DNA of 64,000 bases, taken from NCBI RefSeq assembly GCF_001907695.1, contig NZ_KV880638.1, positions 1,178,882 to 1,242,881 on the forward strand, read 5' to 3'. Positions 17,178 through 33,265 of the stretch are shown here, one piece after another. The translations under genes and the position numbers were made by a program. How positions within the stretch are numbered: position 1 is the stretch's first letter; each line of letters begins with the position of its first letter. Source of the stretch: Thalassospira sp. TSL5-1. GTDB taxonomy: Bacteria; Pseudomonadota; Alphaproteobacteria; Rhodospirillales; Thalassospiraceae. A model generated the notes under the pieces. It searched no databases. It worked only from the letters and a program-made list of their open reading frames with translations, and was not told the DNA's origin.

Positions 17178-18052
17178 TCAGCATCGCACAACAACGTAAC
17201 CGCACGCTGGCGGCAACATTCACCTTTTTGGGCAATGCAAGCGGGCTGGTCAAGGTTTCGGCTTTTCTGGTGCTGGCCCTGGCGGTGCTGGCGGTATTTG
17301 GTCCCTGGATCATGCCGTTTGATCCCAACGAGGTTGATTTAACCAATCGCTTGCTGGCACCGGATGCGGCGCATTGGCTGGGTACGGATCATCTTGGCCG
17401 CGATATTTTATCACGCCTGATGGCTGGAACGCGGGTATCGCTGGGCTCGGTCGCAATCTCTCTTGTCGTGATCATGACGCTGGGCATTCTGGTGGGTGGG
17501 GCCGCGGGTTTTCTGGGTGGGCGTGCGGATCAGTTGATCATGCGTGTGACCGACATTTTTATGACTTTTCCCACCCTGGTGCTGTCCCTGTTCATGATTG
17601 GCATGTTGGGAACCGGGCTTGTCAATGTGATTGTCGCAATCGCCCTGTCGCACTGGGCCTGGTATGCGCGCATCGTGCGCAGCATCGTCATGTCGCTGCG
17701 GCATCGGGAATATATTCTGGCCTCCCGGCTGGCCGGCGCGGGGCGGGTTCGGATTTTCATCGAACATCTTTTGCCCGCCACCCTGTCGCAGTTGCTGGTG
17801 CTGGCAACGCTGGATATCGGGCATATTATGTTGCATGTGGCGGGGCTGTCGTTTTTGGGGCTGGGCGTGATGCCCCCCACGCCGGAATGGGGGGTGATGA
17901 TCAACGATGCCCGGCAATTCATCTGGACCCAGCCGCTTTTGATGCTCTGGCCCGGCCTGGCCCTGTTTGCAAGCGTCATGGCGTTTAACGTTATTGGTGA
18001 TGCGGTGCGGGACCGGCTTGATCCCCACCTGCGCGAGGAGCATATCCATTGA
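17174..18052 (+). CDS. nikC: nickel ABC transporter permease NikC, 292 aa
   Basis: DppC/NikC-type permease with an N-terminal helix (residues about 25-45), the conserved motif [18 protein letters not shown] after it, and five more helices. The EAA-like loop [19 protein letters not shown] and the [17 protein letters not shown] block are characteristic. Partner of NikB. Its start overlaps nikB by 4 bases. Confidence 0.93.
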
Positions 18053-18837
18053 TGGCGCCGACAATTCTTTCGATTTCGGATTTAACGGTCACAACACAAA
18101 AGCATGGCACAACCTGCAAACTGGTTGATGACCTGTCACTGGATATTACATCGGGCCGGGTTTTGGCGCTGGTGGGGGCCAGCGGGTCGGGAAAATCGCT
18201 AAGCTGTGCAGCATGTCTGGATGTGTTGCCAGCAGGGGTGACGCGGCAATCAGGCCAGGTGAGGCTGGATGGCCAGGGCATTGATTTCGCCGCCCTGCGT
18301 GGAAGGATCGTCAGTTCGATCATGCAAAATCCGCGCAGCGCCTTTAACCCGGTCATGACCATGAAGGCCCATGCGCGCGAAACCCTAAAGGCACTTGGCC
18401 TGCCTCGGGAAGCCGGGAATGCACGTATTATTGAGGCCTTCCGCGATGTGGGGCTGGAAGAGCCCGAACGTATCCTTAACCTGCATCCCTTCGAGATGAG
18501 CGGCGGCATGTTGCAACGGGTGATGATCGCAATGGCGCTTTTGGGGGACCCGCCGTTTCTGTTCGCCGATGAACCGACAACCGACCTCGACCTTGTGGTG
18601 CAAAAACATATCCTTGATTTGCTGGAACGGGTGGTGACGCGTCGCGGGACGGGCATTTTGCTTGTGACCCACGATATGGGCGTGGTTGCGCGGCTGGCCG
18701 ATGACGTGGCCGTGATTGATGCCGGAAAAATCGTTGAACAGGCACCGGTCCATCAGGTGTTTGAACGGCCATCCCATCGGGTCACGCGCAATCTGGTTGC
18801 GGCCCATTTGTCACTCTACGGGCTGGAGGTTTCCTGA
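18052..18837 (+). CDS. nikD: nickel ABC transporter ATPase NikD, 261 aa
   Basis: ABC ATPase with Walker A GASGSGKS (about residue 40), Q-loop QNPRSAFNP, signature MSGGMLQRV, Walker [12 protein letters not shown], and switch His in VTHDMG. The C-terminus is of the oligopeptide/nickel type. ATG 18052 overlaps the nikC TGA. With NikE it powers nickel import. The preceding in-frame TTG has no independent support. Confidence 0.92.
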
Positions 18838-19679
18838 TGTCCCTGTTATCTGCCCACACTGTTTCGCATGGTTATCGCCGTTTTTCATTGCTGGGGCCGT
18901 CGCATTATCAACCGGTGTTGAATGATGTGTCGATGAACATTGAAAGGGGTGAAACCCTTGCCCTTTTGGGGCGCAGCGGATGCGGCAAAAGCACGCTCGC
19001 CCGGTTGTTGATTGGCCTGGAAAACCCAACCCGTGGCGAGGTCCGGTTTGAGGGGAAACCGTTAAACAGCCTGTCGCAGGCCGACCAACGGGCACTGCGT
19101 TGTGCCGTGCAAATGGTGTTTCAGGATTCCATTTCGGCCGTAAACCCGCGAAAAACAGTGGGCGAAATTATTGCCGAACCGCTGCGCCATTTAACCGATA
19201 TGACGGCGGAACAGCAAAACAGGCGGGTTGCGGCGTTACTGGAATCGGTTGAGTTATCGGCCGGGGATGCACAAAAACACCCCGCCGCGATGAGCGGCGG
19301 GCAGCTCCAGCGTGTTTGTATTGCCCGTGCGCTGGCCCCGAAACCGTCGCTTGTTATTTTGGACGAGGCCGTGTCCAACCTTGATCTTTTGTTGCAGATA
19401 CAAACCCTGGATCTGTTGCGCGGGCTACAGGAAAAATCCGGCGTGTCATTTCTGTTTATTACCCATGATTTGCGCCTTGTGGAACGGTTCTGTTCGCGTG
19501 TCATGGTGATGGACGGTGGCAGGATTGTTGAGGAAACGGCTGTTTATGGGCGGGTACGTTTAGAACATCCTGCAAGCAAACAGTTGCAGGACGCCATTCT
19601 TCCGGCCTGGCCTAAAGGCTATGTAAATCCGGCTCGTGTTGGCAAAACCGACAGGCAGCCGATGGTTGCAAATTTGTGA
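18837..19679 (+). CDS. nikE: nickel ABC transporter ATPase NikE, 280 aa
   Basis: Second ATPase of the importer: Walker A GRSGCGKST (about residue 46), Q-loop QDSISAVNPRKTVGEI, signature MSGGQLQRVCIARAL, Walker B VILDEAVSNLD, and His in ITHDLRLV. The VSNLDLLLQIQTLDLL stretch is NikE-like. The extended C-terminus (PAWPKGYVNPARVGK) is slightly longer than in E. coli. ATG overlaps the nikD stop. No nikR follows, unlike in E. coli. Confidence 0.92.
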   Translation: MSLLSAHTVSHGYRRFSLLGPSHYQPVLNDVSMNIERGETLALLGRSGCGKSTLARLLIGLENPTRGEVRFEGKPLNSLSQADQRALRCAVQMVFQDSISAVNPRKTVGEIIAEPLRHLTDMTAEQQNRRVAALLESVELSAGDAQKHPAAMSGGQLQRVCIARALAPKPSLVILDEAVSNLDLLLQIQTLDLLRGLQEKSGVSFLFITHDLRLVERFCSRVMVMDGGRIVEETAVYGRVRLEHPASKQLQDAILPAWPKGYVNPARVGKTDRQPMVANL

Positions 19680-19755: not shown

Positions 19756-20661
19756 TTAAAGGTCGCAGCCCAGAATTTCGCGTTCGATGTAATCGGCCCC
19801 TTCTTCGCCCTTTAGGCTGCGCCGCCACAGGCGGTTGGTCATTTCGGTATAAAGCTCGATGGCTTCGGGCGCGGCACTGACGGTGGCGACACCCAGGCGG
19901 ATATTGGCGAAGGTGCCCAAACGGAATGGGCTGACCACCACGCGGGTTTCCGTGCCCTGTTTAAAAAGCTGGAAGGTGGCACCGGGCATGGAATCGACAA
20001 TGACGCCAACCTGGGTGCCAATCGGCTGATCGCGCAACAGGCGGGCGATGTTTTTGATTTCATTGCGCGCAATGTCGCGGCGAAATTCCAGATCGGCGCG
20101 GCTGGGCTCAAAGGTGCCGACAAAGCCGGTGCGCAGGAATTGCGACAGTTCGGCCGCGCACACCAGGCTGACGGTATTGGGCGTGCGTTCGCGAAACGAT
20201 TTTTTGCGCTGTTTCAGGATCTTCATCAGTGCATCGACATCGCGCAGTGCCGTCGCCCGGTCCGATGCGTCCTCGGGGATGCTTTCGGTCAGAACGGTGG
20301 GTAATATTTCGTCAAACCGGTCCGTGGTCAAAAGATAGGATACCGGGTCAAACAACATGCTGATCTGGTCGGCCTGTTCTTCAAGCTGACGCATTCGTTC
20401 AAAAAAACTGACGGCAGACCCAATATATTCCACCCCGACACCCAACAGGTTGGGCAGGGTGACATTCAGGCCGTCTGCAATTTTGCCCAGGGTATCAAGC
20501 TTGGGAGGATGGCCGCCTTCATAGCGGTAAATGGCAGCACGCGAAACGCCGATCCGTTCTGCCAGTTCCTCGGGCGACATGCCTTTGCCCATGCGAAACG
20601 CCTTGATCCGCTGGCCGATATCTTCTCCCGCGATTTCTGCACTCATGTCTTTGTGTCGCAT
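19756..20661 (-). CDS. Xre-family transcriptional regulator, 301 aa
   Basis: N-terminal Cro/C1-type helix-turn-helix at about residues 15-70 (GQRIKAFRMGKGMSPEELAE region, then RIGVSRAAIYRYEGG). The remaining 230 residues are mostly helical with a Lys/Arg-rich KQRKKSFRER patch and a C-terminal part that I do not recognise, presumably the ligand-sensing domain. It diverges from the TRAP/pyrimidine operon across a 175-base AT-rich region with TCTCAA/TTGAGA repeats, so it is the likely regulator of that operon. Start at 20661 or at the Met 5 codons later. Confidence 0.8.
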   Translation of the reverse strand: MRHKDMSAEIAGEDIGQRIKAFRMGKGMSPEELAERIGVSRAAIYRYEGGHPPKLDTLGKIADGLNVTLPNLLGVGVEYIGSAVSFFERMRQLEEQADQISMLFDPVSYLLTTDRFDEILPTVLTESIPEDASDRATALRDVDALMKILKQRKKSFRERTPNTVSLVCAAELSQFLRTGFVGTFEPSRADLEFRRDIARNEIKNIARLLRDQPIGTQVGVIVDSMPGATFQLFKQGTETRVVVSPFRLGTFANIRLGVATVSAAPEAIELYTEMTNRLWRRSLKGEEGADYIEREILGCDL

Positions 20662-20701: not shown

Positions 20702-20753
20702 TCTCAAAAAGTCTCAATTATTAAGATTTTTTTCATAAATCTCTTTTTTGAGA
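20702..20753. promoter_or_regulatory. AT-rich divergent control region with TCTCAAAAAG inverted repeat
   Basis: TCTCAAAAAG (20702-20711) is answered by CTTTTTTGAGA (20743-20753), an inverted repeat with one extra base, and a further TCTCAA follows the left copy. TTGACT at 20760 could be a -35 element for the operon to the right. The position between xre and dctP suggests binding sites of the Xre protein. Confidence 0.5.
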
Positions 20754-20836
20754 AAATTATTGACTTGTTTGATGAAGCTGGGAAGATGGTCATTCCTTTT
20801 CGATCTGTCGATAACCTAATCAGGGGGCATCTAAGA

Positions 20837-21859
20837 ATGACGTTTTCAACACCGGCAAAAGTTTTTGCTGCCGCGTTGTGCATTTCGGGGCTGACCGCGT
20901 TTTCCGCGCAGGCCGCAGAGTTTGTTGCAAAGATCGGCCATCTGGAATCGGCGCAGCAAAGCCGTAACATCTATTTGGAAAAAGTTGCCAAGCTGGTGAA
21001 TGAACGCACCGACGGCAATGTTGAGTTTGAAATCTACCCGCAGGGTCAGCTTGGCAATCAGCGCCAGATGACCGAAGGCACCCAGCTTGGCGTGCTTGAG
21101 GCGACGGTTTCCCCGGCGGCTTTCCTGGGCGGGTTTAACCCGGCGGTTTCGGTTCTCGATATTCCCTATCTGATGCCGCAGGATTTCAAGCAGGCACAGG
21201 CGATTCGTGACAGCGCGTTTGGCAAGGAACTGCTGGCCTCTTTCTCGTCAAAGGGTGTGGTTGCCATTGGCCTGTGGCCGAACGGCTTTAAGCAGTTCAC
21301 CTCGAACAAGCCGATTGAAAACTGGAAAGAATTTGCCGGTCAGAAATTCCGCGTGATGGATTCCAACATCCTGATCGAACAGTTCAAGGCAATGGATGCT
21401 TCGGCAATTGCCCTGCCGTTTGGTGAACTTTACACCTCGCTTCAGATGGGTGTTGTCGATGGGGAAGAAAACCCGCTCGATACCATCGAACGCATGAAAT
21501 ATTACGAAGTTCAGAAGAACCTTGTTGTTTCCGACCACGGTGCAATGGAAGACGTGATCCTGTTTAACGACGCTTTCTGGAATTCGCTGCCGGAAAACTA
21601 TCGCAAGGTCATTGTTGAGACCTTCCACGAAGTGATCCCTGACCTGGTCAAGGACAAGGCTGACAAGGTCGCAGCCGCCTTGGAAGTGGTTAAACAGAAC
21701 GGCATGAATGTGCGTGTTGCGACCCCGGAAGAGCGTAAAGCCCTGCGTGAGGAAGTTTATCCCGCGACCAAGGCTGCTTATGTCGAGCGTGCCGGTGATG
21801 AAGGCAAAAAGCTGATCGACCTTTACGAGAAGGCTTACGCCGACGTCGTTGGTAAGTAA
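20837..21859 (+). CDS. dctP: TRAP transporter substrate-binding protein of the pyrimidine operon (DctP family), 340 aa
   Basis: Signal peptide MTFSTPAKVFAAALCISGLT ending AQA before AEFVAKIGH. DctP hallmarks follow: VNERTDGNVEFEIYPQGQLGNQRQMTEGTQLG (in part), the FAGQKFRVMDS segment with the carboxylate-binding Arg, and ALPFGELYTSLQMGVVDGEENP. An acidic ligand is therefore expected. AGGGGG lies 9 bases before ATG 20837. Linkage to pyrK-pyrD-carbamoylase-pyrC-pyrE suggests orotate, dihydroorotate or N-carbamoyl-aspartate as ligand (inference). Confidence 0.9.
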   Translation: MTFSTPAKVFAAALCISGLTAFSAQAAEFVAKIGHLESAQQSRNIYLEKVAKLVNERTDGNVEFEIYPQGQLGNQRQMTEGTQLGVLEATVSPAAFLGGFNPAVSVLDIPYLMPQDFKQAQAIRDSAFGKELLASFSSKGVVAIGLWPNGFKQFTSNKPIENWKEFAGQKFRVMDSNILIEQFKAMDASAIALPFGELYTSLQMGVVDGEENPLDTIERMKYYEVQKNLVVSDHGAMEDVILFNDAFWNSLPENYRKVIVETFHEVIPDLVKDKADKVAAALEVVKQNGMNVRVATPEERKALREEVYPATKAAYVERAGDEGKKLIDLYEKAYADVVGK

Positions 21860-21971
21860 TCATCCCGTGGCGGCATGGTGCGGTTTTTCGCATTGTGCCG
21901 CCATTTTTGTTTTTAAATTTTCCAATCATCGGCACTAGCAATAATCATAAACGATGCCGGGGAGACAGCAC

Positions 21972-22499
21972 ATGACGACGCTTTTAAAGGTTCTTAGAAC
22001 GACCGAGCGTATTTTTCTTGTTACCATCTTTTTGTTGATGGTCGGGCTTTTTACCCTTGGCGTTGTGGTGCGCGAGGTTGCCCCGCAATATTCCAGCGAT
22101 TTTTCCTGGATCGACGAAGCTGTACAGATGCTTAATCTGTTTCTGGTTTTCTGTGCGCTGGGTTTGGCGCTTGAACGCAAACGGCATGTGGGTGTCACCA
22201 CGTTTCGCGATTCCCTTTCCCCTGGCAAACGCAAAGTCGTTTTTGCCCTGATCGATCTGACCGGTGTTTTATTTTCGATTTATACCACCCGTCTTGGCAT
22301 CGAAATGGTGCAGTTTGTGTTTGCATCCGGCCAGCACAGCCCGACATTGAATATTCCAATGGGCTGGATTTATCTGGCACCAACCATCGGGTTTGCCCTT
22401 TTGGGCCTGCGTTATGCCCTGAGCCTGTTTGGCGTGATCGACCGTTTCACCCCGGATAATGCCAGTAGCTCCGCCACGCCCGAAAAAGGAGCCGCATGA
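21972..22499 (+). CDS. dctQ: TRAP transporter small permease (DctQ family), 175 aa
   Basis: Four hydrophobic helices (about residues 15-35, 50-68, 88-108, 130-150). A DctQ-like pattern occurs at VVREVAPQYSSDFSWIDEAVQ, with W and acidic residues at the start of helix 2, and LERKRHVGVTTF in the loop. GGGGAGAC precedes ATG 21972. The stop overlaps the large permease start (ATGA). It joins the binding protein to the translocation subunit. Confidence 0.88.
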   Translation: MTTLLKVLRTTERIFLVTIFLLMVGLFTLGVVVREVAPQYSSDFSWIDEAVQMLNLFLVFCALGLALERKRHVGVTTFRDSLSPGKRKVVFALIDLTGVLFSIYTTRLGIEMVQFVFASGQHSPTLNIPMGWIYLAPTIGFALLGLRYALSLFGVIDRFTPDNASSSATPEKGAA

Positions 22500-23779
22500 T
22501 GCTGATTGCGATTATTGCCGCGACTGTCGTTCTGATGGCGCTTGGCTTTGAAATGCTGCTGGTGCTTGGCCTGCCCACGCTGGCCATCAAGGAAGTTTTT
22601 TACGGGCGCCTTCCCGATGTGGTGTTTGTTCAAAAACTGCTGGGCGGTATTAACCATTCAACCCTGCTTGCCATTCCATTTTTCCTGTTTGCCGCCCAGT
22701 TGATGGCATCGGGCCAGATCACCCGTCGTTTGATGGGGTTGGTCAGCGCGATGCTGGGGCATACACGCGGTGGTATCGGCCACACTGTTATTGGCGGGTC
22801 GATGGCATTTGGGTCGGTGTCCGGTTCGGCTCCGGCAACGGTGGCGGCCCTTGGTGGTATGGTTTACCCGGAATTGCGCAAAAGCGGCTATTCGGAAAAA
22901 TTCAGCCTGGGCCTGATTGTTTCAAGTGCCGAAACCGCGCTTTTGATTCCGCCCTCGATCACCTTCATTGTGTATGGCTGGATGACGGGCACGTCGGTCG
23001 CACAGCTATTTGCCGGTGGCCTTGCCATTGGGGTTGTGCTGGCGCTGATTTTTGCCGCCCTGGTAATGTTTCATGCCTCCCGCCAAAATGTAACTGCCCG
23101 CCCGCGTGTGCCCTGGAAACAGCGCATTGATGCTCTGGTCGCGGCTGGCTGGGCGCTGGGCATGCCGTTGATTATTCTGGGTGGTATTTATTCGGGGACA
23201 TTCACCCCGACCGAAGCCGCCGCCGTCAGCGTGGTTTACGCCATTTTTGTTGAGGCGGCGGTGTATCGCGAACTTGGCTTTCGCAAGCTGGTTGATACTT
23301 GCGAAGCCAGTGCCATCTCGACAGCTGTGATTTTTATCCTGCTGGCTTTTGGTGGTGTGCTGTCGTTCTTTGTGACCCTGGCGCATGTTCCGACCGCCAT
23401 TTCGTCTTTTCTGGCCGCAATTGATGCCGGACCGATCCTGTTTTTGCTGATCCTGAATGTCTGCTTCTTGATTGCCGGCATGTTCATTGATCCCAATTCA
23501 GCCCTGCTGATTTTGGTGCCGCCACTGTTTCCGGTTGCGACCAGCCTAGGCATTGATCCGGTACATCTGGGCATGATTGTCACGCTCAATATCAGCCTGG
23601 GCATGATCACACCGCCCTTTGGTCTCGATCTGTTTGTGGCGTCATCGACGCTGGATAAGCCCGTGACCAAGATCATTGCCGGGGTTTGGCCCTTTGTGGT
23701 GGCGAACCTGATTGCGTTGCTGATCGTCACCTACATTCCGCAGATTTCGCTGTTTATTCCCAACCTGTTATTTAGGTAA
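22496..23779 (+). CDS. dctM: TRAP transporter large permease (DctM family), 427 aa
   Basis: About 12 membrane helices and DctM motifs: LLAIPFFLFAAQLMASGQITRRL (in part), GSVSGSAPATVAALGGMVYPEL, SSAETALLIPPSITFIVYGWMTG (in part), and FTPTEAAAVSVVYA. It is the ion-coupled importer subunit. Eleven bases separate it from the pyrK-like gene, so transporter and enzymes are one transcription unit. Confidence 0.9.
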   Translation: MMLIAIIAATVVLMALGFEMLLVLGLPTLAIKEVFYGRLPDVVFVQKLLGGINHSTLLAIPFFLFAAQLMASGQITRRLMGLVSAMLGHTRGGIGHTVIGGSMAFGSVSGSAPATVAALGGMVYPELRKSGYSEKFSLGLIVSSAETALLIPPSITFIVYGWMTGTSVAQLFAGGLAIGVVLALIFAALVMFHASRQNVTARPRVPWKQRIDALVAAGWALGMPLIILGGIYSGTFTPTEAAAVSVVYAIFVEAAVYRELGFRKLVDTCEASAISTAVIFILLAFGGVLSFFVTLAHVPTAISSFLAAIDAGPILFLLILNVCFLIAGMFIDPNSALLILVPPLFPVATSLGIDPVHLGMIVTLNISLGMITPPFGLDLFVASSTLDKPVTKIIAGVWPFVVANLIALLIVTYIPQISLFIPNLLFR

Positions 23780-23790
23780 GGAAACGTCCA

Positions 23791-24636
23791 ATGACTGCCG
23801 CTGTCCTACATGTAACGCCGGATTCCATTCCGGCGAACGAACGGGTATTTGAAAGTGAATGCCTGGTCAAAAGCAATACGCCGGTAAATAACGACTATCG
23901 GCTGCTGATCCTCGATGCCCCGGCCGAGATCCTGAACTGCACGCCGGGCCAGTTTTTCCACATCCAGTGCCCGGTGCGCGGGGGCCATCATCCCTATCTG
24001 CGCCGCCCCATGAGCATCTATGGCTATTTCCCGGAAAAGGGCGAATTGCAGTTTCTCTATAAAATCGCAGGCGAGGGGACCGCTGCGTTAGCGGAGCTTA
24101 AAACCGGCGAAAGCCTGAATGTTGTGGGGCCGTTAGGCCAGGGCTTTCATATTGCTGATAACTGGCAAAACCTGTTGTTGTTAGCCCGTGGTGTGGGGCT
24201 GGCAACGCTGGCACCGCTGGCGTTGGAAGCACAGCGCCTGGGCAAAAAACTAACCGCGATTTGTAGTGCCCGTTCGCCTGAATTGCTGATGTCGATTGAT
24301 TATTTCCGTGATTTGGGCGCGGAGATTATTACCGTCACCGATAGCGAAGGGACGTCTGATCTGGCCCATTTGCAGGGCGTGATTGAAGGCCTGATTGCCG
24401 ATCAGGGGATTGACGCCTTTTATACCTGTGGGTCCAACCGATTGTTGAAGCTGCTTCAGGAAATCGGCGCCAAACATGGCATTCCTGGCGAAATTGCCCT
24501 GGAACAGCAAATGGCCTGCGGGCTGGGCATGTGCCAGTGCTGTGTGCGCTCTTTCCGGGCGGAAAGCGGCATTGTGCATAAACGGGTGTGCAAGGAAGGC
24601 CCTGTATTTGACCTTCAGGAGGCAATGGGATGGTAG
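23791..24636 (+). CDS. pyrK: dihydroorotate dehydrogenase electron-transfer subunit (PyrK-like), 281 aa
   Basis: Ferredoxin-reductase-type flavoprotein. The FAD domain has the RRPMSIYGY motif (about residue 72) and GEGTAALAELKTGESLNVVGPLGQGF. The NAD domain is at about 125-235 with a central ARGVGLA. The C-terminal 2Fe-2S cluster has ligands in MACGLGMCQCC and a fourth Cys in RVCKEGPVF. This is the layout of PyrK, which passes electrons between NAD(H) and class 1B PyrD. Slightly longer than Gram-positive PyrK because of an N-terminal extension. It overlaps pyrD by 7 bases, as expected for a complex-forming pair. Confidence 0.87.
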   Translation: MTAAVLHVTPDSIPANERVFESECLVKSNTPVNNDYRLLILDAPAEILNCTPGQFFHIQCPVRGGHHPYLRRPMSIYGYFPEKGELQFLYKIAGEGTAALAELKTGESLNVVGPLGQGFHIADNWQNLLLLARGVGLATLAPLALEAQRLGKKLTAICSARSPELLMSIDYFRDLGAEIITVTDSEGTSDLAHLQGVIEGLIADQGIDAFYTCGSNRLLKLLQEIGAKHGIPGEIALEQQMACGLGMCQCCVRSFRAESGIVHKRVCKEGPVFDLQEAMGW

Positions 24637-25574
24637 ATCTTTCCGTTCAAATCGGCGATTTGTGCCTGAAAAATCCGATTATGCCCGCCTCGGGGACATT
24701 CTCCGAGGATCTGGTGACGGTGTTTGACCTGAATTTGCTGGGCGCGCTGGTAACAAAAACCATCACGCGCGGCATTCGTCAGGGCAACCCAACGCCGCGT
24801 GTGTGCGAAGTGTCGGGATCGATGCTGAATTCCATTGGCATTCCCAGCAAGGGTGTTGGGCAGTTTATTGCCAATATGGTGCCGTTTTATCAGGCCTATA
24901 ACAGCCCGCTGGTGGTTAGCATTTCTGGCAACACCGCCGATGAATTTGCTCGCCTGTGCGAAGAAATCAGTGTGCCGGGTGTGGCGGCGATCGAGGTCAA
25001 TATTTCCTGCCCCAATATCGAGGAAGACGGCAAGGCCTTTGCCATGCGCCCGGCATCGACGCTGGATGTGATGCGCAAATTGCGTGCTGCGACCGACTTG
25101 CCGTTATGGGCGAAATTAACCCCCAATACCGGCGAAACATCGGACGTCGCCCGTGCCGCCGAGGAAGGCGGGGCCGATGCCCTGGTGGTTTCAAACACCA
25201 TGCTGTCCATGTCGATTGACGTGCACTCGCGCAAACCGCGTTTGGGGAATTTGATGGGCGGGCTTTCTGGCCCGTCGCTAAAACCGATCAGCCTGCGCAT
25301 GGCCTATCAGTGCGCCAAGGCGGTGGATATTCCCGTTATTGGCTGTGGCGGCATTTCCACCATTGATGATGTGCTGGAATATTTGATTGCCGGGGCATCT
25401 GCCGTGCAGGTGGGGACGGCGACCTTCATTCATCCGACTGTGATGGTGCAAATGATTGGCGAATTGGAAGCCTATCTGCGCACGCACAATATCGCTTCGG
25501 TCCGGGATCTGATTGGCAGCGTCCGTGACGAGGAAGCCGCCGACACCGTTGTCTTTATGGAGGCCGCACCATGA
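24630..25574 (+). CDS. pyrD: NAD-linked dihydroorotate dehydrogenase catalytic subunit (class 1B PyrD), 314 aa
   Basis: Class 1B signatures: ASGTFSEDL near the N-terminus, SGSMLNSIGIPSKG, catalytic Cys in EVNISCPNIEEDG (about residue 130), WAKLTPNTG with the FMN-binding Lys, LVVSNTM, GGLSGPSLKPISLRM, and IGCGGIST. It interconverts orotate and dihydroorotate using FMN, with NAD through PyrK. Proteobacteria usually make pyrimidines with a membrane, quinone-linked class 2 enzyme, so this soluble NAD type next to a transporter is unusual. AGGAGG lies 6 bases before ATG. Confidence 0.88.
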   Translation: MVDLSVQIGDLCLKNPIMPASGTFSEDLVTVFDLNLLGALVTKTITRGIRQGNPTPRVCEVSGSMLNSIGIPSKGVGQFIANMVPFYQAYNSPLVVSISGNTADEFARLCEEISVPGVAAIEVNISCPNIEEDGKAFAMRPASTLDVMRKLRAATDLPLWAKLTPNTGETSDVARAAEEGGADALVVSNTMLSMSIDVHSRKPRLGNLMGGLSGPSLKPISLRMAYQCAKAVDIPVIGCGGISTIDDVLEYLIAGASAVQVGTATFIHPTVMVQMIGELEAYLRTHNIASVRDLIGSVRDEEAADTVVFMEAAP

Positions 25575-26857
25575 ACACTATCGTTCCGCGATCAACCTTT
25601 TCGCAGCAGGACCGTGACCTTGTTGCCAGCCTGTTTGCCGATATTGGTGCACAAACCGCCGATACCGAAGGGGTTAGCCGCCCGGCTTATTCGGCCATTG
25701 AAACGGCCACGATTGATTATCTGGTGGAATTCGCCCGCAAACACGGGCTTGAAGTTGAATTTGATGCCGCCTGCAATGCGCTGTTTTCCCTGCCCGAAGA
25801 CAAGGCGGCGGAGAAATTTGTGCTGGTTGGGTCACACGCCGATAGCGTGCCCAATGGCGGCAATTTTGATGGGTTGGCCGGTATTCTCGCCGGGTTGATG
25901 TGCCTGGTGCGTGCCAAAAACGAAGGCCGCCGCTTTTCCCGCCCGGTCAAGGTGATTGCCCTGCGCGGCGAGGAAAGTGCTTGGTACGGCCCGTGTTATA
26001 TTGGCTCCAAGGCGCTGTTTGGCCTTTTGGGTTCAACGGAGCTTTCGGCTCGCCACAAGGGTGATAATCGCCCGCTGGCCGATCATATGGCCGAGATTGG
26101 CATTGATATGGCCCCGGTGAAGGCAGGGGAAAAGCTGTTTGATCCGTCGCGCCTGCTGGCCTATGTCGAACTGCATATCGAACAGGGTCCGCTGCTGGTG
26201 AACAAGGATTTGCCAGTCGCCAATGTGTCGGGCATTCGCGGTAATTTCCGCCACAAGGCGATTACGTGCATTGGCGAAGCGGGCCATTCCGGTGCGGTGC
26301 CGCGTGCCTATCGCCGGGACCCGGTGCTGGCCGCAGCGGACCTGTTCACCCGCCTGGATGACGACTGGGACACCATTTTGCAAAAGGGCGATGACCTGGT
26401 TTTAACCAGTGGTGTTGTCGGTACCGATCCGCAAAAGCACGCCATTGCCCGTATTCCCGATAGCATATCCTTTAGTCTGGATGTGCGCAGCCAGGATGCT
26501 TCAACGCTGGACGCGATGCGCGATTTGCTGCGTGCCCATATGCGCATTGTTGAACGCAACCGCAAAGTCCGGTTTGAACTGGACGACGAACTGGGCGTGG
26601 CCCCGGCCCTGTGCGATGGCGATGTGGTGGCGGGTATTTCGGCTGCCATGCGCCGCCTTGGGTTTGAGGATTATGTCATGCCCAGCGGGGCGGGGCATGA
26701 TGCCGCCGTTTTTGCCAATAACGGGGTTCCGACCGGCATGATCTTTATTCGTAACCGGAACGGATCACACAACCCGCGCGAAGCAATGGAGATTGATGAC
26801 TTCATGGCGGCAAGCTCGGTTTTGTATGAATATCTGATCCATTCGGAGGCCGCATGA
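25571..26857 (+). CDS. M20-family hydantoinase/carbamoylase-type amidohydrolase (candidate ureidosuccinase), 428 aa
   Basis: Zn-dependent N-carbamoyl amidohydrolase/allantoate amidohydrolase family. Metal ligands are readable: His in VGSHADSVP, Asp in GGNFDGLAG, the Glu pair in [11 protein letters not shown], His in [10 protein letters not shown], and late His in [10 protein letters not shown]. The GxxGHSG dimerisation segment is at [10 protein letters not shown]. These enzymes remove the carbamoyl group from N-carbamoyl-amino acids. Between pyrD and pyrC, N-carbamoyl-L-aspartate is the attractive substrate, giving aspartate, CO2 and NH3 (inference; other carbamoyl or ureido compounds are possible). 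It overlaps both neighbours by 4 bases. Confidence 0.85.
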
Positions 26858-27945
26858 CCGCAACAGAATTGACGTTGCGCCGCCCGGATGACTGGCATTT
26901 GCACTTGCGCGATGGGACGACGATGCGGGCGGTGCTGCCCTATAGCAGTGCAAACTTTGCCCGTGCGATTATTATGCCCAATCTGGTGCCGCCCGTGGTG
27001 AGCGGGGATGATGCCCGGGCCTATCGCGACCGCATTTTGGCCGCCGTGCCCGCCGGGCATGATTTTACCCCGCTGATGACGCTGTATCTGACCGAAACCA
27101 CCAATGCCGATGAGGTGGCAGCATCCTATGAGGCGGGGTTGATTTCGGCCCTTAAACTTTATCCGGCAGGGGCGACCACCAATTCCGATTCCGGTGTGCG
27201 CGATATTGACCACGTCATGCCGGTTTTGGAACGCATGGCCCTGCTGGGAATTCCGTTATGTGTACATGGTGAAGTCACCGACCCGGCGATTGATATTTTT
27301 GACCGCGAGGCGGTTTTTATCGACAAGGTGCTGCGCCGCATTGTTGACCGGGTGCCTGAACTGCGCATCATCATGGAGCACATCACTACCGAAGAAGGTG
27401 TGCAATATGTGTGGGAAAGTGGGGCCAATATTGCGGCAACCATCACCACGCACCATTTGATCATTAACCGCAATGCCATGCTGGTGGGCGGTATTCGCCC
27501 GCATTATTACTGTTTGCCGGTGGCAAAACGCGAAAAGCACCGCTTGGCCCTGCGCCGTGCTGCAACATCGGGCAATGGAAAGTTTTTCCTGGGCACGGAT
27601 TCCGCCCCGCATCTCGATGCGCGCAAGGAAAGTGCCTGTGGCTGTGCGGGGATGTTTACCGCGCCAAACACCCTTTCCTGCCTGGCACATGTGTTTGAAG
27701 AAGAAGGCGCGCTTGACCATCTGGAGGCTTTTGCGTCATTGAATGGCCCAGCCTTTTATCGTCTGGTGCCCAACGAGGCGCGCATCAGGCTGGTTAAAAG
27801 GCAAACGCCCTTTGAGGTATCGGCTAAAATCGATACGGACGAAGGTTCGCTAACGGTATTTGATCCGGGATTTCCGCTTTATTGGCATCCCGAAGCGGCA
27901 CTATCGGCGGATCAGGGCGATGCTGTAAACAAAACGAGGACCTGA
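26854..27945 (+). CDS. pyrC: dihydroorotase, E. coli PyrC type, 363 aa
   Basis: Type II dihydroorotase with full metal site: DWHLHLRDG (two His), carboxylated Lys in [13 protein letters not shown], His in LCVHGEV, His in IMEHITT, and catalytic Asp in GTDSAPH. It opens the dihydroorotate ring to N-carbamoyl-L-aspartate, or closes it in biosynthesis. Length is close to E. coli PyrC (348) with a short C-terminal tail. Coupled by 4-base overlap with the carbamoylase, which could use its product, and 1 base from pyrE. Confidence 0.93.
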
Positions 27946-27946
27946 G

Positions 27947-28642
27947 ATGTTTTCCAATGCCTTTCCCGAACGTGCCCTGATGGCCGAAATGACGGCAAAA
28001 ATGCTGCTTGAGATCGAGGCGGTACATTTTCGGGCCGACAAGCCGTTTACCTTTACCTCGGGTCTTGCCAGTCCGGTTTATATTGATTGCCGCAAACTGA
28101 TTTCCTATCCGCGCATTCGCATGACCCTGATGGATTTTGCCGCCTCGCAAATTTTGCGCAATGCGGGCTTTCAGAAATTCCAGGCCGTTGCGGGTGGGGA
28201 AACAGCAGGTATTCCATTTGCCGCCTGGCTGGCCGACAAGTTGGCCCTGCCCATGCAATATGTGCGCAAAAAACCCAAGGGCTTTGGCCGCGATGCGCAG
28301 ATCGAGGGGGATATCGTCGAAGGTGCGAATGTGTTGCTGGTCGAAGATTTGACCACCGATGGCGGCAGTAAAATCAATTTCTGCGAGGCATTGCGTCGGG
28401 CTGGTGCCAATGTCACCGATACGCTGGTGATTTTCTATTACGACATTTTCCCGCAAACCCGCGAAAAGCTGAAAGAACACGGGCTGGAACTGCACTGGCT
28501 GGCAACCTGGTGGGATGTGCTGGCTGTGTGCAAGGCCCAGAACTATTTTGACCCCAAAACCCTCGATGAAGTTGAAGCCTTTCTGACCAATCCGACCCAA
28601 TGGTCGGGGCAGCATGGCGGGGCGACGGAAATTAATCTTTGA
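27947..28642 (+). CDS. pyrE: orotate phosphoribosyltransferase, 231 aa
   Basis: Type I phosphoribosyltransferase fold: [18 protein letters not shown] near the N-terminus, [29 protein letters not shown] loop, and PRPP-binding motif [14 protein letters not shown] (about residue 130). It converts orotate plus PRPP to OMP. It gives the operon a salvage branch for imported orotate. No pyrF is nearby, so OMP decarboxylase must be elsewhere. Confidence 0.93.
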
Positions 28643-28656
28643 GAAGGGATACCAGA

Positions 28657-28977
28657 ATGTACGAAAAATTGATCACCGTAATGCAGGGCGATGCCCTTGG
28701 CGTTCAGGCCTATGAAGAATGCAGTCGCATTGCCGCAACCGCCATTACCGAAAAATCGGGCGATGCCGCCCCGTTCTTGCTGCTGGGCATGATCGCCAAC
28801 CGCTTTATCGATGCCTATCGGGACCAGCCTTTGTCGCGTAAAACCGCCGAAGACCAGGCCAAACGCTATGTCGAACTGTGCAGCGCCTTTCGCGAAGCCT
28901 TTGAAAAGGGCAGCGATGCCGACAAGCTGAATATTCTCAATGAAACCGCGCGGGCCTATAACGCCGAAACGCTGTAA
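28657..28977 (+). CDS. conserved-looking small protein of unknown function, 106 aa
   Basis: I do not recognise this protein. It is predicted mostly alpha-helical, soluble and acidic, with Cys at about residues 19 and 72 and no signal peptide or membrane segment. AGAAGGGA lies about 8 bases before ATG 28657, and it follows pyrE by 14 bases ahead of a strong terminator, so it is a true last gene of the TRAP-pyr operon. A role tied to the pathway, such as an accessory subunit, is only a guess. Confidence 0.72.
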   Translation: MYEKLITVMQGDALGVQAYEECSRIAATAITEKSGDAAPFLLLGMIANRFIDAYRDQPLSRKTAEDQAKRYVELCSAFREAFEKGSDADKLNILNETARAYNAETL

Positions 28978-29020
28978 GGGCGCAAATCGCATCCCGGATC
29001 AGTAGGTAATCTTCTGCATA

Positions 29021-29050
29021 CTGCCGCCTGTTTTACGGGCGGCAGTTTTT
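29021..29050 (+). terminator. strong terminator ending the TRAP-pyr operon
   Basis: CTGCCGCC and GGCGGCAG form an 8-bp stem with a 9-base loop, followed by TTTTT. It is 43 bases after the last gene. Confidence 0.92.
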
Positions 29051-29202: not shown

Positions 29203-30150
29203 ATGTCTGAAAACCATGACGTTCTTGTCGTTTCGCCTGCATTGCCGCATCAAATGGAAAAGCTGGCGCAGGAATATACCCTGCATCGCTATGACAAAAG
29301 TGATGACCGTGAAGCCCTGCTTGAAAGTGTTGCCGATAAGGTGCGCCTGGTGATGACAACCGCCGGGGTGGGGGTTTCGGTGGAATTGATGGATAAATTG
29401 CCGAAACTCGAAGTGATTACCAGTTTCGGTGTGGGATATGATTCCATCGATATTGCCGCCTGCACCGAACGCGGTATTCGTGTCACCAATACGCCTGATG
29501 TGCTTAATGATGATGTGGCTGACACCGCGATCATGCTGATGCTGGCAACCCTGCGCCGCCTTGTGGTTGGTGACCAATGGGCGCGCAGCGGCAATTGGTC
29601 AAAAAATGGCGCGATGCCGTTAACAACGACCTTAAATCGCAAAAAGGTTGGCATTGTCGGCTTGGGCCGCATTGGCAAGGCGATTGCCAGCCGGGCCGAA
29701 CCGTTTGGGGTGGAACTGGGTTATTTTGGCCGTTCACAGCAGGATGATGTTCCCTATCCCTATTTTGAGGATTTGCTGAAACTGGCCGACTGGGCCGATG
29801 TGCTGGTACTGGCCTGCCCGGGCGGGGAGGCGACCCGCAACCTGATTGATATGAATGTGCTGCGTGCCCTGGGGCCGACGGGTTATGTTGTGAATATCGC
29901 GCGTGGTACGGTGGTGGATGAGCCTGCCCTGATTACGGCACTACGCGATGGTATTATTGCCGGGGCGGGGCTGGATGTTTTTCATAACGAACCGCATATG
30001 AACCCGTCTTTTGCCGATTTTGAAAATGTCGTGATTTATCCGCATCACGCCAGCGGCACAGTGGAAACACGCAATGCGATGGGGCAGCTTGTTGTGGATA
30101 ATCTGGTGGCGTTTTTTGCCGGTAAGCCCCTGATAACGCCAGTGAACTAA
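29203..30150 (+). CDS. D-2-hydroxyacid dehydrogenase (glyoxylate/hydroxypyruvate or 2-ketogluconate reductase type), 315 aa
   Basis: Complete D-isomer specific 2-hydroxyacid dehydrogenase. Substrate domain has TSFGVGYDSIDI. Cofactor motif is GIVGLGRIGKAIA (about residue 150), catalytic Arg in NIARGTVVDE, catalytic Glu in LDVFHNEPHMN, and catalytic His in YPHHASGT. The Arg after the second beta strand (FGRSQQ) suggests NADPH preference. It likely reduces glyoxylate, hydroxypyruvate or a 2-keto sugar acid. It stands alone: a terminator precedes it and a GC hairpin follows. Confidence 0.87.
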   Translation: MSENHDVLVVSPALPHQMEKLAQEYTLHRYDKSDDREALLESVADKVRLVMTTAGVGVSVELMDKLPKLEVITSFGVGYDSIDIAACTERGIRVTNTPDVLNDDVADTAIMLMLATLRRLVVGDQWARSGNWSKNGAMPLTTTLNRKKVGIVGLGRIGKAIASRAEPFGVELGYFGRSQQDDVPYPYFEDLLKLADWADVLVLACPGGEATRNLIDMNVLRALGPTGYVVNIARGTVVDEPALITALRDGIIAGAGLDVFHNEPHMNPSFADFENVVIYPHHASGTVETRNAMGQLVVDNLVAFFAGKPLITPVN

Positions 30151-30169
30151 AGGTATGAAGGATAGCTGG

Positions 30170-30189
30170 CGGGCCGTATATTCGGCCCG
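30170..30189 (+). terminator. GC-rich hairpin after the dehydrogenase gene
   Basis: CGGGCCG and CGGCCCG pair around a 6-base loop 20 bases past the stop and are followed by TTTG. The T-run is short, so termination may be partial. Confidence 0.5.
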
Positions 30190-30231
30190 TTTGCCATTGG
30201 CAGGATCCCGGCGTTTGGATAATCTGGCCTG

Positions 30232-30615
30232 ATGACACAGGGCAAAGACCTTAAAATCCGTTTGAAAATTGACCTGCCGGGCGGGGTGCGCCTTGGCTAT
30301 GGCAAGGTTGATTTGTTGCGCGCGGTTGCCCGGGAGGCATCGATCTCCGCGGCGGCGCGCACGATGGGCATGTCCTATCGTCGGGCCTGGTTGCTGATCG
30401 ACGAGTTAAATAAAAGTTTTGCCAGCCCGGTGATTGAAACCCGCATTGGCGGCAAGGCCCATGGTGGTGCAACGTTAACCGACATGGGTGAACGCATTAT
30501 CGCCCTTTATCTGGCGGCGGAAGAACAGGCCAGGGTGGCAATGGCGCAAAACCTTGATGATCTTGCCCGTTGTCTGGTCCCGGCATCCGCGTCTGACGAA
30601 ACGGACGATCTTTAG
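30232..30615 (+). CDS. one-domain ModE-like molybdate regulator (winged helix only), 127 aa
   Basis: Matches the N-terminal winged-helix part of ModE: GKVDLLRAVAREASISAAARTMGMSYRRAWLLIDELN (in parts: SISAAARTMGMSYRRAW). It ends soon after the dimerisation helices and lacks the two C-terminal Mop/TOBE molybdate-binding modules of E. coli ModE (262 aa). It converges on modC with overlapping stops (TTTAG at 30611-30615). A ModE-type operator lies before modA, so this protein is the likely repressor, but how it would sense molybdate is unclear. Confidence 0.83.
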   Translation: MTQGKDLKIRLKIDLPGGVRLGYGKVDLLRAVAREASISAAARTMGMSYRRAWLLIDELNKSFASPVIETRIGGKAHGGATLTDMGERIIALYLAAEEQARVAMAQNLDDLARCLVPASASDETDDL

Positions 30616-31763
30616 GACCCAATTTCGCGCAATTTGCCATCCACTGTGACCGATTTGATCACGGCATAAACCTGCTGACCAACTTCCAGTGACAGGCGCT
30701 GTGCCGACCAGTTGGTGATGCGGGCCTGGATGATCGGTGTTGTTAATGTTCTGCCCTTGGCGGCATGTCCCAGGCGAAGGGCGGCCTCGATATTGCTGGT
30801 GCCAACCGGGGTCAGGGCAGCAATGGTGGCGGGCAAAATGTTATTGGCGCTAATACCGTCGGGAATGGATGTTGCGATCATGACATCGCGTGCGCGAATA
30901 TGCAGGCGGGTTTGTTGCGGGATGGTGCTGGCGTGGGTGGTCGTAGTGTTCGCCGAAGGTAAAAGCGGTACAATCAATTGATGCCCGGCACAGCCCAAAT
31001 AGGTAATGCCGCCTTTGGGATCATGCCCTGTTATTGTCGCGGGGATCACCGCCCCGGCATCAAACTGCCCGGTTAACGGGGCCAGGTCGGTTTGGGCCAG
31101 AATATCAAATACCGACCCGCTGGCGCGCACGCGGCCCTTTTCCATGACCACGATATGGTCGGCCAGCCGGGCGACTTCATCAATTGAATGGCTGACATAT
31201 AAAATTGGCAGGCGGCGCTGATCGCGCAGCGCCTCCAGATACGGCAGGATTTCTTCCTTGCGCGCCTGATCAAGGGCCGACAAGGGCTCGTCGAGCAATA
31301 AAATATCCGGGTTGCCCAACAGCGCACGGCCCAGAGAGACACGCTGCCTTTCCCCACCCGAAAGTTTTGCCGGGCGGCGCGACAGCAAATCGCCAATACC
31401 CAGCATGGCAATGATGGCCTCGATCTCATTTTCGGGCAGGGGATTTGCAGACCGGCGATGGGCAAAAAACAGGTTTTTGCGCACGGTTAAATGCGGAAAT
31501 AAGCGCGCATCCTGAAACACATAGCCCACCCGCCGTTTGCGGGGCGGTAAATGGATTTTCGTCCCTTCATCAAAAACCGTGCAGTCATTGAGGGTAATGG
31601 TCCCGGCATCGGGTCTGATTAACCCGGCAATGGCGTTGATCAGGGTGGTTTTACCGCTGCCCGAGGGGCCAAACAGGGCCGTAATGCCCGGCTGGTCCAC
31701 GGTGAAGCGCGCCTGTAAATCAAGGCTTCCGACCTGATGGCGAATGTCGATTTGAAGGCTCAT
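30612..31763 (-). CDS. modC: molybdate ABC transporter ATPase ModC, 383 aa
   Basis: ABC ATPase with Walker A FGPSGSGKTTL (about residue 36), Q-loop YVFQDARLFPHLTV, signature LSGGERQRV, Walker B ILLLDEPLSALD, and switch His YVSHSIDE. The C-terminal extension (about 290-383) carries a Mop/TOBE domain that can bind oxyanion (NNILPATIAALTPVGTSNIE in parts). This ModC arrangement is normal. ATG 31763 overlaps the modB stop; upstream in-frame codons lie in modB. Confidence 0.92.
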   Translation of the reverse strand: MSLQIDIRHQVGSLDLQARFTVDQPGITALFGPSGSGKTTLINAIAGLIRPDAGTITLNDCTVFDEGTKIHLPPRKRRVGYVFQDARLFPHLTVRKNLFFAHRRSANPLPENEIEAIIAMLGIGDLLSRRPAKLSGGERQRVSLGRALLGNPDILLLDEPLSALDQARKEEILPYLEALRDQRRLPILYVSHSIDEVARLADHIVVMEKGRVRASGSVFDILAQTDLAPLTGQFDAGAVIPATITGHDPKGGITYLGCAGHQLIVPLLPSANTTTTHASTIPQQTRLHIRARDVMIATSIPDGISANNILPATIAALTPVGTSNIEAALRLGHAAKGRTLTTPIIQARITNWSAQRLSLEVGQQVYAVIKSVTVDGKLREIGS

Positions 31764-32461
31764 GAGCGGACCTGCCCGGTCAGTTTCTGGCGGATGCCGC
31801 GCATCGCCATTTCCGAAATGATCAATCCGCACAGGGCCAAACCAATCGAAAGTGCGGCAAGCCGGGCGGCCGCCAGTTCGCCCCCCGGTGTTTGAATGGC
31901 GGTATAAATCGCCAGTGGCAGGGTGCGGGTTTCGCCGGGAATGTTGGAAACAAAGGTAATAATCGCGCCAAATTCGCCCAGGCTGGCACTAAAGGCGGTA
32001 ATTGCCCCGGCAATGATGCCGGGCAGGGCCAGGGGCAGGGTGATGTTTATAAACCGGTCAAACGGCCCGGCACCCAGTGTTTCGGCGGCCTGATGCAGGC
32101 CGGGATCCATATTTTCCAGCGCAATGCGTATGGCACGCACCTGAAAGGGAAAGCTGACAATACCTGCCGCCAGCGCCGCCCCGCTCCAGCTAAAGACCAG
32201 GCGAATATCAAATGTATGAAGCAGCCACGCCCCGATGGGCGCACGGGTGCCAAAGCTGATCAGCAGCAAATACCCCATTACCACCGGCGGCAAAATCAGC
32301 GGTAAATGCACAATGGCATCAAGCAGAAACCGGCCGGGAAACCGCCCGAATGTCAGCGCGCTGGCCGCCAATATGGCAAAGGGCAGGGCCCCTGCCACGG
32401 CGACAGCGGCAATTTTCAGGCTTAACAGCAGGGCATCAATTTCGGCAGGCGACAGCGTCAT
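31760..32461 (-). CDS. modB: molybdate ABC transporter permease ModB, 233 aa
   Basis: About five membrane helices and the ModB pattern: LPLILPPVVMGYLLL, AALAAGIVSFPFQVRAIRIALE in parts, then the EAA loop AAETLGAGPFDRFINITLPLALPG in parts, followed by FSASLGEFGAIITFVSNIPGETRTLP in parts. It is the channel for molybdate. Sixteen bases follow modA and it overlaps modC. Confidence 0.93.
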   Translation of the reverse strand: MTLSPAEIDALLLSLKIAAVAVAGALPFAILAASALTFGRFPGRFLLDAIVHLPLILPPVVMGYLLLISFGTRAPIGAWLLHTFDIRLVFSWSGAALAAGIVSFPFQVRAIRIALENMDPGLHQAAETLGAGPFDRFINITLPLALPGIIAGAITAFSASLGEFGAIITFVSNIPGETRTLPLAIYTAIQTPGGELAAARLAALSIGLALCGLIISEMAMRGIRQKLTGQVRS

Positions 32462-32476
32462 GGGGGATGGGGCCTG

Positions 32477-33265
32477 TTATTCTTGCGGCATGCGAAAGCC
32501 ATATTGGCGGAAAACAGCGCGTGCATCAGGTGATTTCAAAAAATCCAGCAGGCCGGTGGATGCCGGGTTTTTCATACCTTTCATCACCGCAACCGGATAG
32601 GTGATGGCAGGATGGCTGTTTGCCGGGAAAGTCGCAATAATTTTAACGCCCTTGCTGATCGCGGCATCGGTACCATACACAATGCCCAGCGGGCTTTCGC
32701 CGCGTTCCACCAGGGCCAGGGCGGCGCGCACATTATCGGCCCGTGCCAGGCGGGGTTCGGTTTTTTCCCACATGCCAAGGTTGCCCAGTGCCTGTTTGCC
32801 ATAGATACCGGCTGGCACATGGTCCGGGTCGCCCATTGCAATGCGGTCATCCTTGCCAATCAGGCGGGTCAAATCGCTTTTGCCGCTCAGCGTTATATCG
32901 CCCAGTTTGCTGTCTTTCGGTGCAATTAATACCAGCGAATTACCCAAAAGGTCGCGGCGGGTGCCTGTCTCCAGCAGGTCCTGGTCCGATAGCCAGTCCA
33001 TCCATTTTTCATTGGCGGAAATAAAAATTTCTGCCGGGCCACCCGCCGCAATCTGGCGTGCCAGGGTGGATGAACTGGCAAATGACAGGCGCACATGGTC
33101 GTCCGGGTTTTGTGCCTCATAGGCCTTGGCAACATCGCCCATTGCGTCGGTCAGGCTGGCGGCGGCAAAAACGGTTATGTCCCTGGCATGGGCAAAGGCG
33201 GGCATAACGAAAAGACCAATTCCTGCTGCCAGGCACAGCAGCGGGCGGGGCAAAGGGCTGAACAT
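32477..33265 (-). CDS. modA: molybdate ABC transporter periplasmic binding protein ModA, 262 aa
   Basis: Signal peptide of about 27 residues ending AFAHA. Mature part opens DITVFAAASLTDAMGDVAKAYEAQ in parts, the ModA start that includes the oxyanion-contacting Ser, followed by FASSSTLARQIAAGGPAEIFISA in parts. IGDPDHVPAGIYGKQAL-like text (MGDPDHVPAGIYG) and GIVYGTDA complete the site. It binds molybdate or tungstate. GGAG precedes ATG 33265 and the operator at 33295-33322 controls it. Confidence 0.93.
   Translation of the reverse strand: MFSPLPRPLLCLAAGIGLFVMPAFAHARDITVFAAASLTDAMGDVAKAYEAQNPDDHVRLSFASSSTLARQIAAGGPAEIFISANEKWMDWLSDQDLLETGTRRDLLGNSLVLIAPKDSKLGDITLSGKSDLTRLIGKDDRIAMGDPDHVPAGIYGKQALGNLGMWEKTEPRLARADNVRAALALVERGESPLGIVYGTDAAISKGVKIIATFPANSHPAITYPVAVMKGMKNPASTGLLDFLKSPDARAVFRQYGFRMPQE

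Follow-up and report, generated by a model that had tools for sequence, protein, structure and literature searches.

A probable accessory operon for the import and reductive degradation of orotate in Thalassospira

The 4.97 Mb genome of the marine bacterium Thalassospira sp. TSL5-1, assembled in 25 contigs, contains a run of genes in which a tripartite ATP-independent periplasmic (TRAP) transporter stands directly upstream of enzymes named after pyrimidine biosynthesis and of an M20 amidohydrolase. The question raised by this locus, found in a stretch of 64,000 nucleotides (C2:1178882-1242881, hereafter the window), is whether the genes serve synthesis, salvage or breakdown. We consider it likely that they are accessory and catabolic, taking up orotate, an intermediate of nucleotide synthesis, and degrading it reductively, with salvage as an option. 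The gene order on the plus strand is dctP-dctQ-dctM-pyrK-pyrD-M20-pyrC-pyrE-orf106 (20837-28977), and the content, order and divergent Xre gene described in the original prediction were borne out, with all frames open and family models fitting every product except that of orf106. The genes are as follows.

19756..20661, minus strand: Xre-family regulator, 301 amino acids, divergent (HTH_3, 49.9 bits, cut-off 23)
20837..21859, plus strand: dctP, TRAP solute-binding protein, probable orotate binder (best PDB match 4nn3)
21954..22499, plus strand: dctQ, small TRAP permease (PF04290)
22496..23779, plus strand: dctM, large TRAP permease (TIGR00786, 397 bits)
23791..24636, plus strand: pyrK-type electron-transfer subunit with flavin adenine dinucleotide and [2Fe-2S] (PF10418 and PF00970 over cut-off; Cys motif ACGLGMCQCC)
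24630..25574, plus strand: pyrD, class 1B, dihydroorotate dehydrogenase (DHODH) linked to nicotinamide adenine dinucleotide (NAD) (PRK07259, TIGR01037; NISCPN motif)
25571..26857, plus strand: M20 N-carbamoyl amidohydrolase, candidate ureidosuccinase (TIGR01879 over cut-off)
26854..27945, plus strand: pyrC, dimeric dihydroorotase (TIGR00856, 424 bits, cut-off 293)
27947..28642, plus strand: pyrE, orotate phosphoribosyltransferase (NF001729, 397 bits, cut-off 245)
28657..28977, plus strand: orf106, helical protein of no known family (106 amino acids from ATG 28657, 112 if the start is TTG 28639)

Adjacent genes overlap by 4-7 nucleotides at dctQ/dctM, pyrK/pyrD, pyrD/M20 and M20/pyrC, and pyrC and pyrE are spaced by 1 nucleotide. 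The likely start of dctP is ATG 20837 and not TTG 20765, since conserved intergenic sequence extends up to that ATG. As had been stated earlier, pyrB, carAB and pyrF are absent from the operon; the genome at large was not searched for these genes.

In the proposed mechanism orotate would be imported by the DctPQM transporter, driven by an ion gradient as in TRAP systems generally. PyrK-PyrD, a class 1B DHODH, would work in the reductive direction and convert orotate and NADH to dihydroorotate, which PyrC would open to N-carbamoyl-L-aspartate, a step that a housekeeping dihydroorotase would take over where the operon lacks pyrC. Removal of the carbamoyl group by the M20 enzyme would then yield aspartate, CO2 and NH3. 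Part of the orotate would be diverted by PyrE to orotidine monophosphate (OMP), making pyrimidine salvage a side route, and the Xre protein would probably keep the operon repressed as long as neither orotate nor a product is present.

The nature of the imported substrate is suggested by DctP, whose closest PDB match is 4nn3 (E 5.8e-128, query residues 10-338). According to PMC11668362, 4NN3 is the TRAP binding protein of Maridesulfovibrio salexigens with orotic acid bound, and has Lys at 152 and Asn at 76 (4P47 numbering), where an Arg and an acidic residue are usual; orotic acid also appears among newly listed TRAP ligands in a passage of PMC5812351. In the window DctP, K152 aligns with the 4NN3 Lys (4P47 position 152) and N74 with the Asn at 4P47 position 76, so that the nearest solved relative, matched across nearly the full length, has both residues in common with it. 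All of the 81 loci compared retain K152, R172, F195 and N212. The alignment supports orotate as the probable ligand. The original prediction had named orotate, dihydroorotate or carbamoyl-aspartate as the import; because DctP is nearest to the orotic-acid-bound 4NN3 and shares Lys152 with it, the list can be narrowed to orotate as the predicted substrate. The 4NN3 system differs in that the binding protein alone has been characterised. A single-sequence AlphaFold model of DctP was poor (mean predicted local distance difference test, pLDDT, 36.8) and was left unused. Dedicated bacterial orotate uptake is also represented by the lactococcal OroP, which differs from DctPQM in being a single permease, not a tripartite TRAP system, and in serving salvage or counter-selection. 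The term "orotate transporter" is used in papers on lactic acid bacteria and Bacillus, among others.

The operon PyrD passes the class 1B models (PRK07259, 345 bits, cut-off 269; TIGR01037, 310 bits, over cut-off), PyrK carries the DHODB Fe-S domain PF10418 over cut-off, and the operon PyrC carries the characteristic active-site motifs. The PyrD, PyrC and PyrE of the operon are not the only ones in the genome. Three DHO_dh proteins over cut-off were found in the genome, namely a class 2 PyrD (TIGR01036, 408 bits), the operon PyrD and PreA. Beyond the operon the genome also encodes a PyrC of the long type, another dimeric PyrC (72% identical) and another PyrE (57% identical). A search for a class 2 pyrD and further pyrC and pyrE genes had been proposed with the original prediction; all are present, and the objection that the operon might hold the only copies falls away. 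The two further dihydroorotases, together with the operon PyrC, also supply the ring-opening activity that orotate degradation requires. PyrK occurs in 4 of 29 Thalassospira genomes, the own genome included, and among 385 genomes from the class 2 have a DctP of the operon type (E <= 1e-80), one of them again the own genome. The operon is accessory, not the sole biosynthetic set, because other pyrD, pyrC and pyrE copies are present in the genome and PyrK and this DctP type are sparsely distributed.

Related loci were sampled by a DctP-alignment scan of named genomes, from which the best 80 of 130 relatives were taken; 72 of these reach at least 8 kb beyond dctP. Gene presence was scored by tblastn with the window proteins and bit thresholds, greedy calling of open reading frames (ORFs) across loci having been dropped in favour of tblastn on account of shadow ORFs in GC-rich DNA. 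The genes pyrK, pyrD-1B and M20 are present jointly in 64 of the 72 loci, and none of the three is found in the remaining 8. Their recurrence beside this type of DctP is more than chance. Among the 64 operons, pyrC was found in 32 and pyrE in 51 (some partial), with neither in 5, and a profile search found orf106 in 63; orf106 was found in 0 loci lacking pyrD. Of the 8 shorter loci, 4 have pyrD and 4 do not (L036, L054, L070 and L072, where the sequence ends no more than 3.6 kb from dctP). In G043 (locus L023), a distant relative belonging to a different family, the full set is present at 40-67% identity, with orf106 about 6 kb from the Xre gene and on the other strand. The conserved core, as predicted from these loci, is the importer, the NAD-linked DHODH, M20 and orf106, with pyrC and pyrE as optional members. 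Degradation is taken as the core function because pyrKD and M20 co-occur while pyrE and pyrC are dispensable in the compared loci, a pattern expected of a degradation operon and not of one for salvage. The original prediction had named degradation and salvage through PyrE as two options; both are retained, with degradation now as the core and salvage as optional. The 106-residue protein that it listed as unknown does lack a known family, and can now be counted as a core member.

The M20 protein exceeds the curated cut-off of TIGR01879 (hydantoinase/carbamoylase) with 281.9 bits versus 204. An alignment of 68 operon M20 proteins (the window, L023 and 66 loci, 2 further loci being excluded as too short) showed H89, D100, E135, H202 and H400, which we take to be the metal and catalytic positions, to be invariant in 68 of 68. 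Residues R132, R223, R227, R306 and R394 are invariant as well. Position 294 is basic in all 68 proteins (66 R, 2 K) and position 293 is S, T or A in all of them. The window protein has A293-R294 at the site where 3n5f and 1z2l carry the Asn-Val of an NVIP/NVVP motif, which is absent here. In carbamoylases the Asn of this motif presumably helps to bind the substrate carboxylate, and the basic residue 294 could hold the second carboxylate of N-carbamoyl-aspartate. The enzyme is thus a candidate ureidosuccinase (N-carbamoyl-L-aspartate amidohydrolase), a specificity suggested by these residues. No sequence is known to have been assigned to the ureidosuccinase activity.

A parallel within the same cell is the reductive degradation of uracil, in which PreT-PreA, a dihydropyrimidinase and an M20 carbamoyl-beta-alanine hydrolase act in turn. 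Contig C7 of the own genome carries a PreT-like gene, preA and an M20 gene in a row, with a dihydropyrimidinase 12-15 kb off, and this set would, as expected, constitute a separate uracil breakdown pathway. Uracil breakdown does not require the operon M20, because the genome has that separate pathway with its own M20. The logic of the two routes is the same, namely to reduce the ring, open it and strip the carbamoyl group, and the M20 enzymes belong to the same superfamily. However, the operon uses PyrK/PyrD-1B in place of PreT/PreA and PyrC in place of dihydropyrimidinase, and its M20 is about 28% identical to the uracil-pathway M20, with a differing motif.

The remaining core member, orf106, gave no NCBIfam match with the window protein. 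Pfam searches with orf106 members gave scattered weak matches, the best to Antiterm (E 1.1e-4, 5 of 64 members), which were taken as not meaningful; likewise, a profile match to the repeat protein CagY among PDB sequences (E 3.8e-6, 27 residues, no stretch passing alone) was set aside. The structure predicted from 64 sequences is a five-helix bundle (mean pLDDT 92.1, predicted template modelling score 0.86), for which Foldseek returned no match at E <= 0.001 (best E 1.1). In Martelella limonii (L048:14920-16578) M20 carries the orf106 domain at its C-terminus, as a fusion protein of 553 amino acids. Among the 385 genomes of the class orf106 occurs in 4, namely in the two DctP-bearing genomes, in G325 and as a weak match in G388. 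In G325 the homologue (L113:7136-13536) is flanked by genes for an ABC (ATP-binding cassette) permease and a dihydropyrimidinase, and the gene run also encodes an NMT1-type binding protein and a putative hydro-lyase. Weak orf106-like matches (E ~1e-5) in one genus of large genomes (G388, G763, G803; loci L112, L115, L116) are not claimed as members, and no ureide gene was found among six scanned neighbours of the match in G388. The contexts of orf106 point to ureide ring or carbamoyl hydrolysis, and the protein is probably a small helical partner of ureide hydrolases. A bolder proposal, to which we give somewhat less than an even chance, is that the M20 is the missing ureidosuccinase gene and that orf106 at the same time founds a new family of small, obligatory helical partners of ureide hydrolases, whose gene stands alone at the end of the operon, is joined to the M20 gene (Martelella) or adjoins one for a dihydropyrimidinase.

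The pathway itself is known. Reductive orotate degradation by an NAD-linked DHODH, dihydroorotase and ureidosuccinase is the route of Clostridium oroticum, an anaerobe in which the biochemistry was described decades ago. By gene content the operon offers the same three reactions, through an NAD-linked DHODH, a dihydroorotase and a carbamoyl hydrolase, and a passage of PMC10395836 assigns the C. oroticum DHODH to class 1B. The differences are that C. oroticum is an anaerobic Firmicute and the present hosts are Alphaproteobacteria, and that the genes here form a single operon that comes with a TRAP importer of its own, an Xre regulator, PyrE and orf106, and in which ureidosuccinase activity is predicted. 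The apparent novelties are the operon together with its importer and regulator, a candidate gene for ureidosuccinase, and the family of orf106. No description of an orotate-degrading operon was apparent among the matches listed in the open-access literature searched, most subscription papers being outside its scope. If the proposed function is true, the gene set provides a genetic signature for orotate breakdown in marine Rhodobacterales and Rhizobiales, ties ureidosuccinase to a gene, assigns a metabolic role to the orotate-binding TRAP family, and adds, in orf106, a conserved protein family whose function is strongly hinted at. For annotation it is a caution that genes for PyrK, PyrD, PyrC and PyrE found together may serve something other than biosynthesis.

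A number of observations weigh against orotate degradation as the function of the operon. The proposal is built on sequence, from which growth, binding and the enzyme steps are deduced. PyrK stays below every NCBIfam equivalog cut-off (130 bits at best versus 314), and its name therefore rests on PF10418 and its position beside PyrD. The class 1B DHODH of Gram-positive bacteria is placed in the de novo pathway in a passage of PMC10395836, so enzyme class alone does not fix the direction in which PyrKD works. Sampling by DctP similarity gives no measure of the frequency with which the enzymes accompany other transporters. The transporter occurs without pyrK, pyrD, M20 and orf106 in 8 loci (L037, L065, L081, L083, L090, L096, L099, L100); no ureide enzyme was found among 10 scanned downstream ORFs from 7 of these 8. 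DctP position 74 varies among the 69 pyrKD-linked loci (40 N, 17 Q, others). Finally, 48 genomes were examined, of which 43 have the operon pyrD, and in 13 of the 43 the only dimeric PyrC is that of the operon (long-type PyrC was not searched there), while PyrE, scored as an NF001729 match, is operon-only in 7 of the 43. In those 7 genomes the operon PyrE probably serves biosynthesis too, and where the operon PyrC is the sole dimeric one it may do the same. A second DHO_dh match was present in 43 of 43 operon genomes, with more than 250 bits in 42 and split across two frames in G418, its assignment to class 2 by model applying to the own genome.

These points bear on the alternatives, of which two are about equally improbable. 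In the first, the operon is one for orotate salvage, import mainly feeding PyrE to give OMP while the other enzymes tune the pool of intermediates. The frequency of pyrE (51 of 64 operons) is what salvage would also predict and again counts against degradation, as does its being the sole PyrE match in the 7 genomes just mentioned. However, salvage from orotate requires neither pyrK, pyrD nor M20, which are present in 64 of 64 operons when pyrE was not found in 13, and the M20 would destroy an intermediate; this makes salvage as the main function an unlikely account.

In the second, to which we likewise assign little probability, the transporter takes up not orotate but a related compound, whether dihydroorotate, N-carbamoyl-aspartate or some other cyclic ureide acid, with PyrKD acting oxidatively or being partly used. 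It would accommodate the variability of DctP position 74, a ligand assigned by sequence and an orf106 that also adjoins a dihydropyrimidinase in G325. The nearest solved binding protein nevertheless holds orotic acid, and with carbamoyl-aspartate as substrate PyrKD would be idle, yet it accompanies M20 wherever the latter is present in the 72 loci. An ordinary de novo pyrimidine operon lying beside a TRAP transporter by chance is very improbable and was rejected because second pyrD, pyrC and pyrE copies lie elsewhere in the genome: PyrD, PyrC and PyrE are de novo enzymes, and the operon PyrC or PyrE is the sole one of its type in some relatives, but the own genome has further copies of all three, 25 of the 29 genomes of the genus lack PyrK, a precursor would be lost to hydrolysis by the M20, and the transporter and regulator recur with the enzymes.

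The optional genes were followed by trees (PyrC, a quick tree of 32 operon and 20 housekeeping rows; PyrE, 54 operon and 14 housekeeping rows), both with long branches and including part of the housekeeping copies; this incomplete sampling also counts against the orotate-degradation reading. In the PyrC tree the Thalassospira operon copies cluster with the housekeeping PyrC of the genus (Shimodaira-Hasegawa-like approximate likelihood ratio test 93, not starred). The "operon" label requires at least 7 changes on the PyrC tree, 3 of them forced by starred branches, and 4 changes on the PyrE tree, 3 of them forced. The grouping of the operon PyrC with the genus housekeeping PyrC, together with a T. 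mesophila operon without pyrC, suggests local recruitment of pyrC in Thalassospira, and the tree hints that pyrC may have been recruited into the operon repeatedly.

In a search for an empty insertion site, the dehydrogenase-modE-modC block that follows the operon was found in G010, G019 and G011 without the operon beside it. Because the block stands without the operon in these genomes, the operon occupies differing places within the genus. The T. mesophila operons (L016, L026), which lack pyrC, have a genomic place that differs from that in other Thalassospira genomes.

In 63 of 64 operon loci an Xre homologue is encoded no more than 3.5 kb from dctP, in some of them on the dctP strand; it is probably a substrate-responsive regulator. 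The control elements recognised in and around the operon are the following.

20702..20753: candidate operator, with the inverted repeat TCTCAAAAA/TTTTTGAGA (20702-20710, 20745-20753) and TCTC-N6-GAGA (20740-20753), a predicted function
21867..21904, plus strand: terminator-like hairpin between dctP and dctQ, 17-pair stem, then a T run
29020..29046, plus strand: terminator-like hairpin at the operon end, after orf106, 12-pair stem, T tail

The TCTC-N6-GAGA element is conserved in 4 of 4 aligned Thalassospira sequences and the 20702-20710 arm is not; a -35-like TTGACT at 20760 lies close to the candidate operator. The promoter scan gave no full plus-strand promoter in the Xre-dctP gap, and its total of 7 sites versus 6.7 in shuffles was no excess. 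The hairpin scan gave 21 terminator-like sites overall versus 15.0 (standard deviation 4.8) in shuffles. It is possible that the hairpin between dctP and dctQ is an attenuator or an mRNA-stability element, and it could possibly keep the binding protein in large excess over the permease.

The operon is flanked upstream (17174-19679) by genes that resemble those of a peptide-type ABC transporter, and downstream (29203-33265) by genes for a hydroxyacid dehydrogenase, a ModE-like regulator and a molybdate ABC system, as guessed from the translations.

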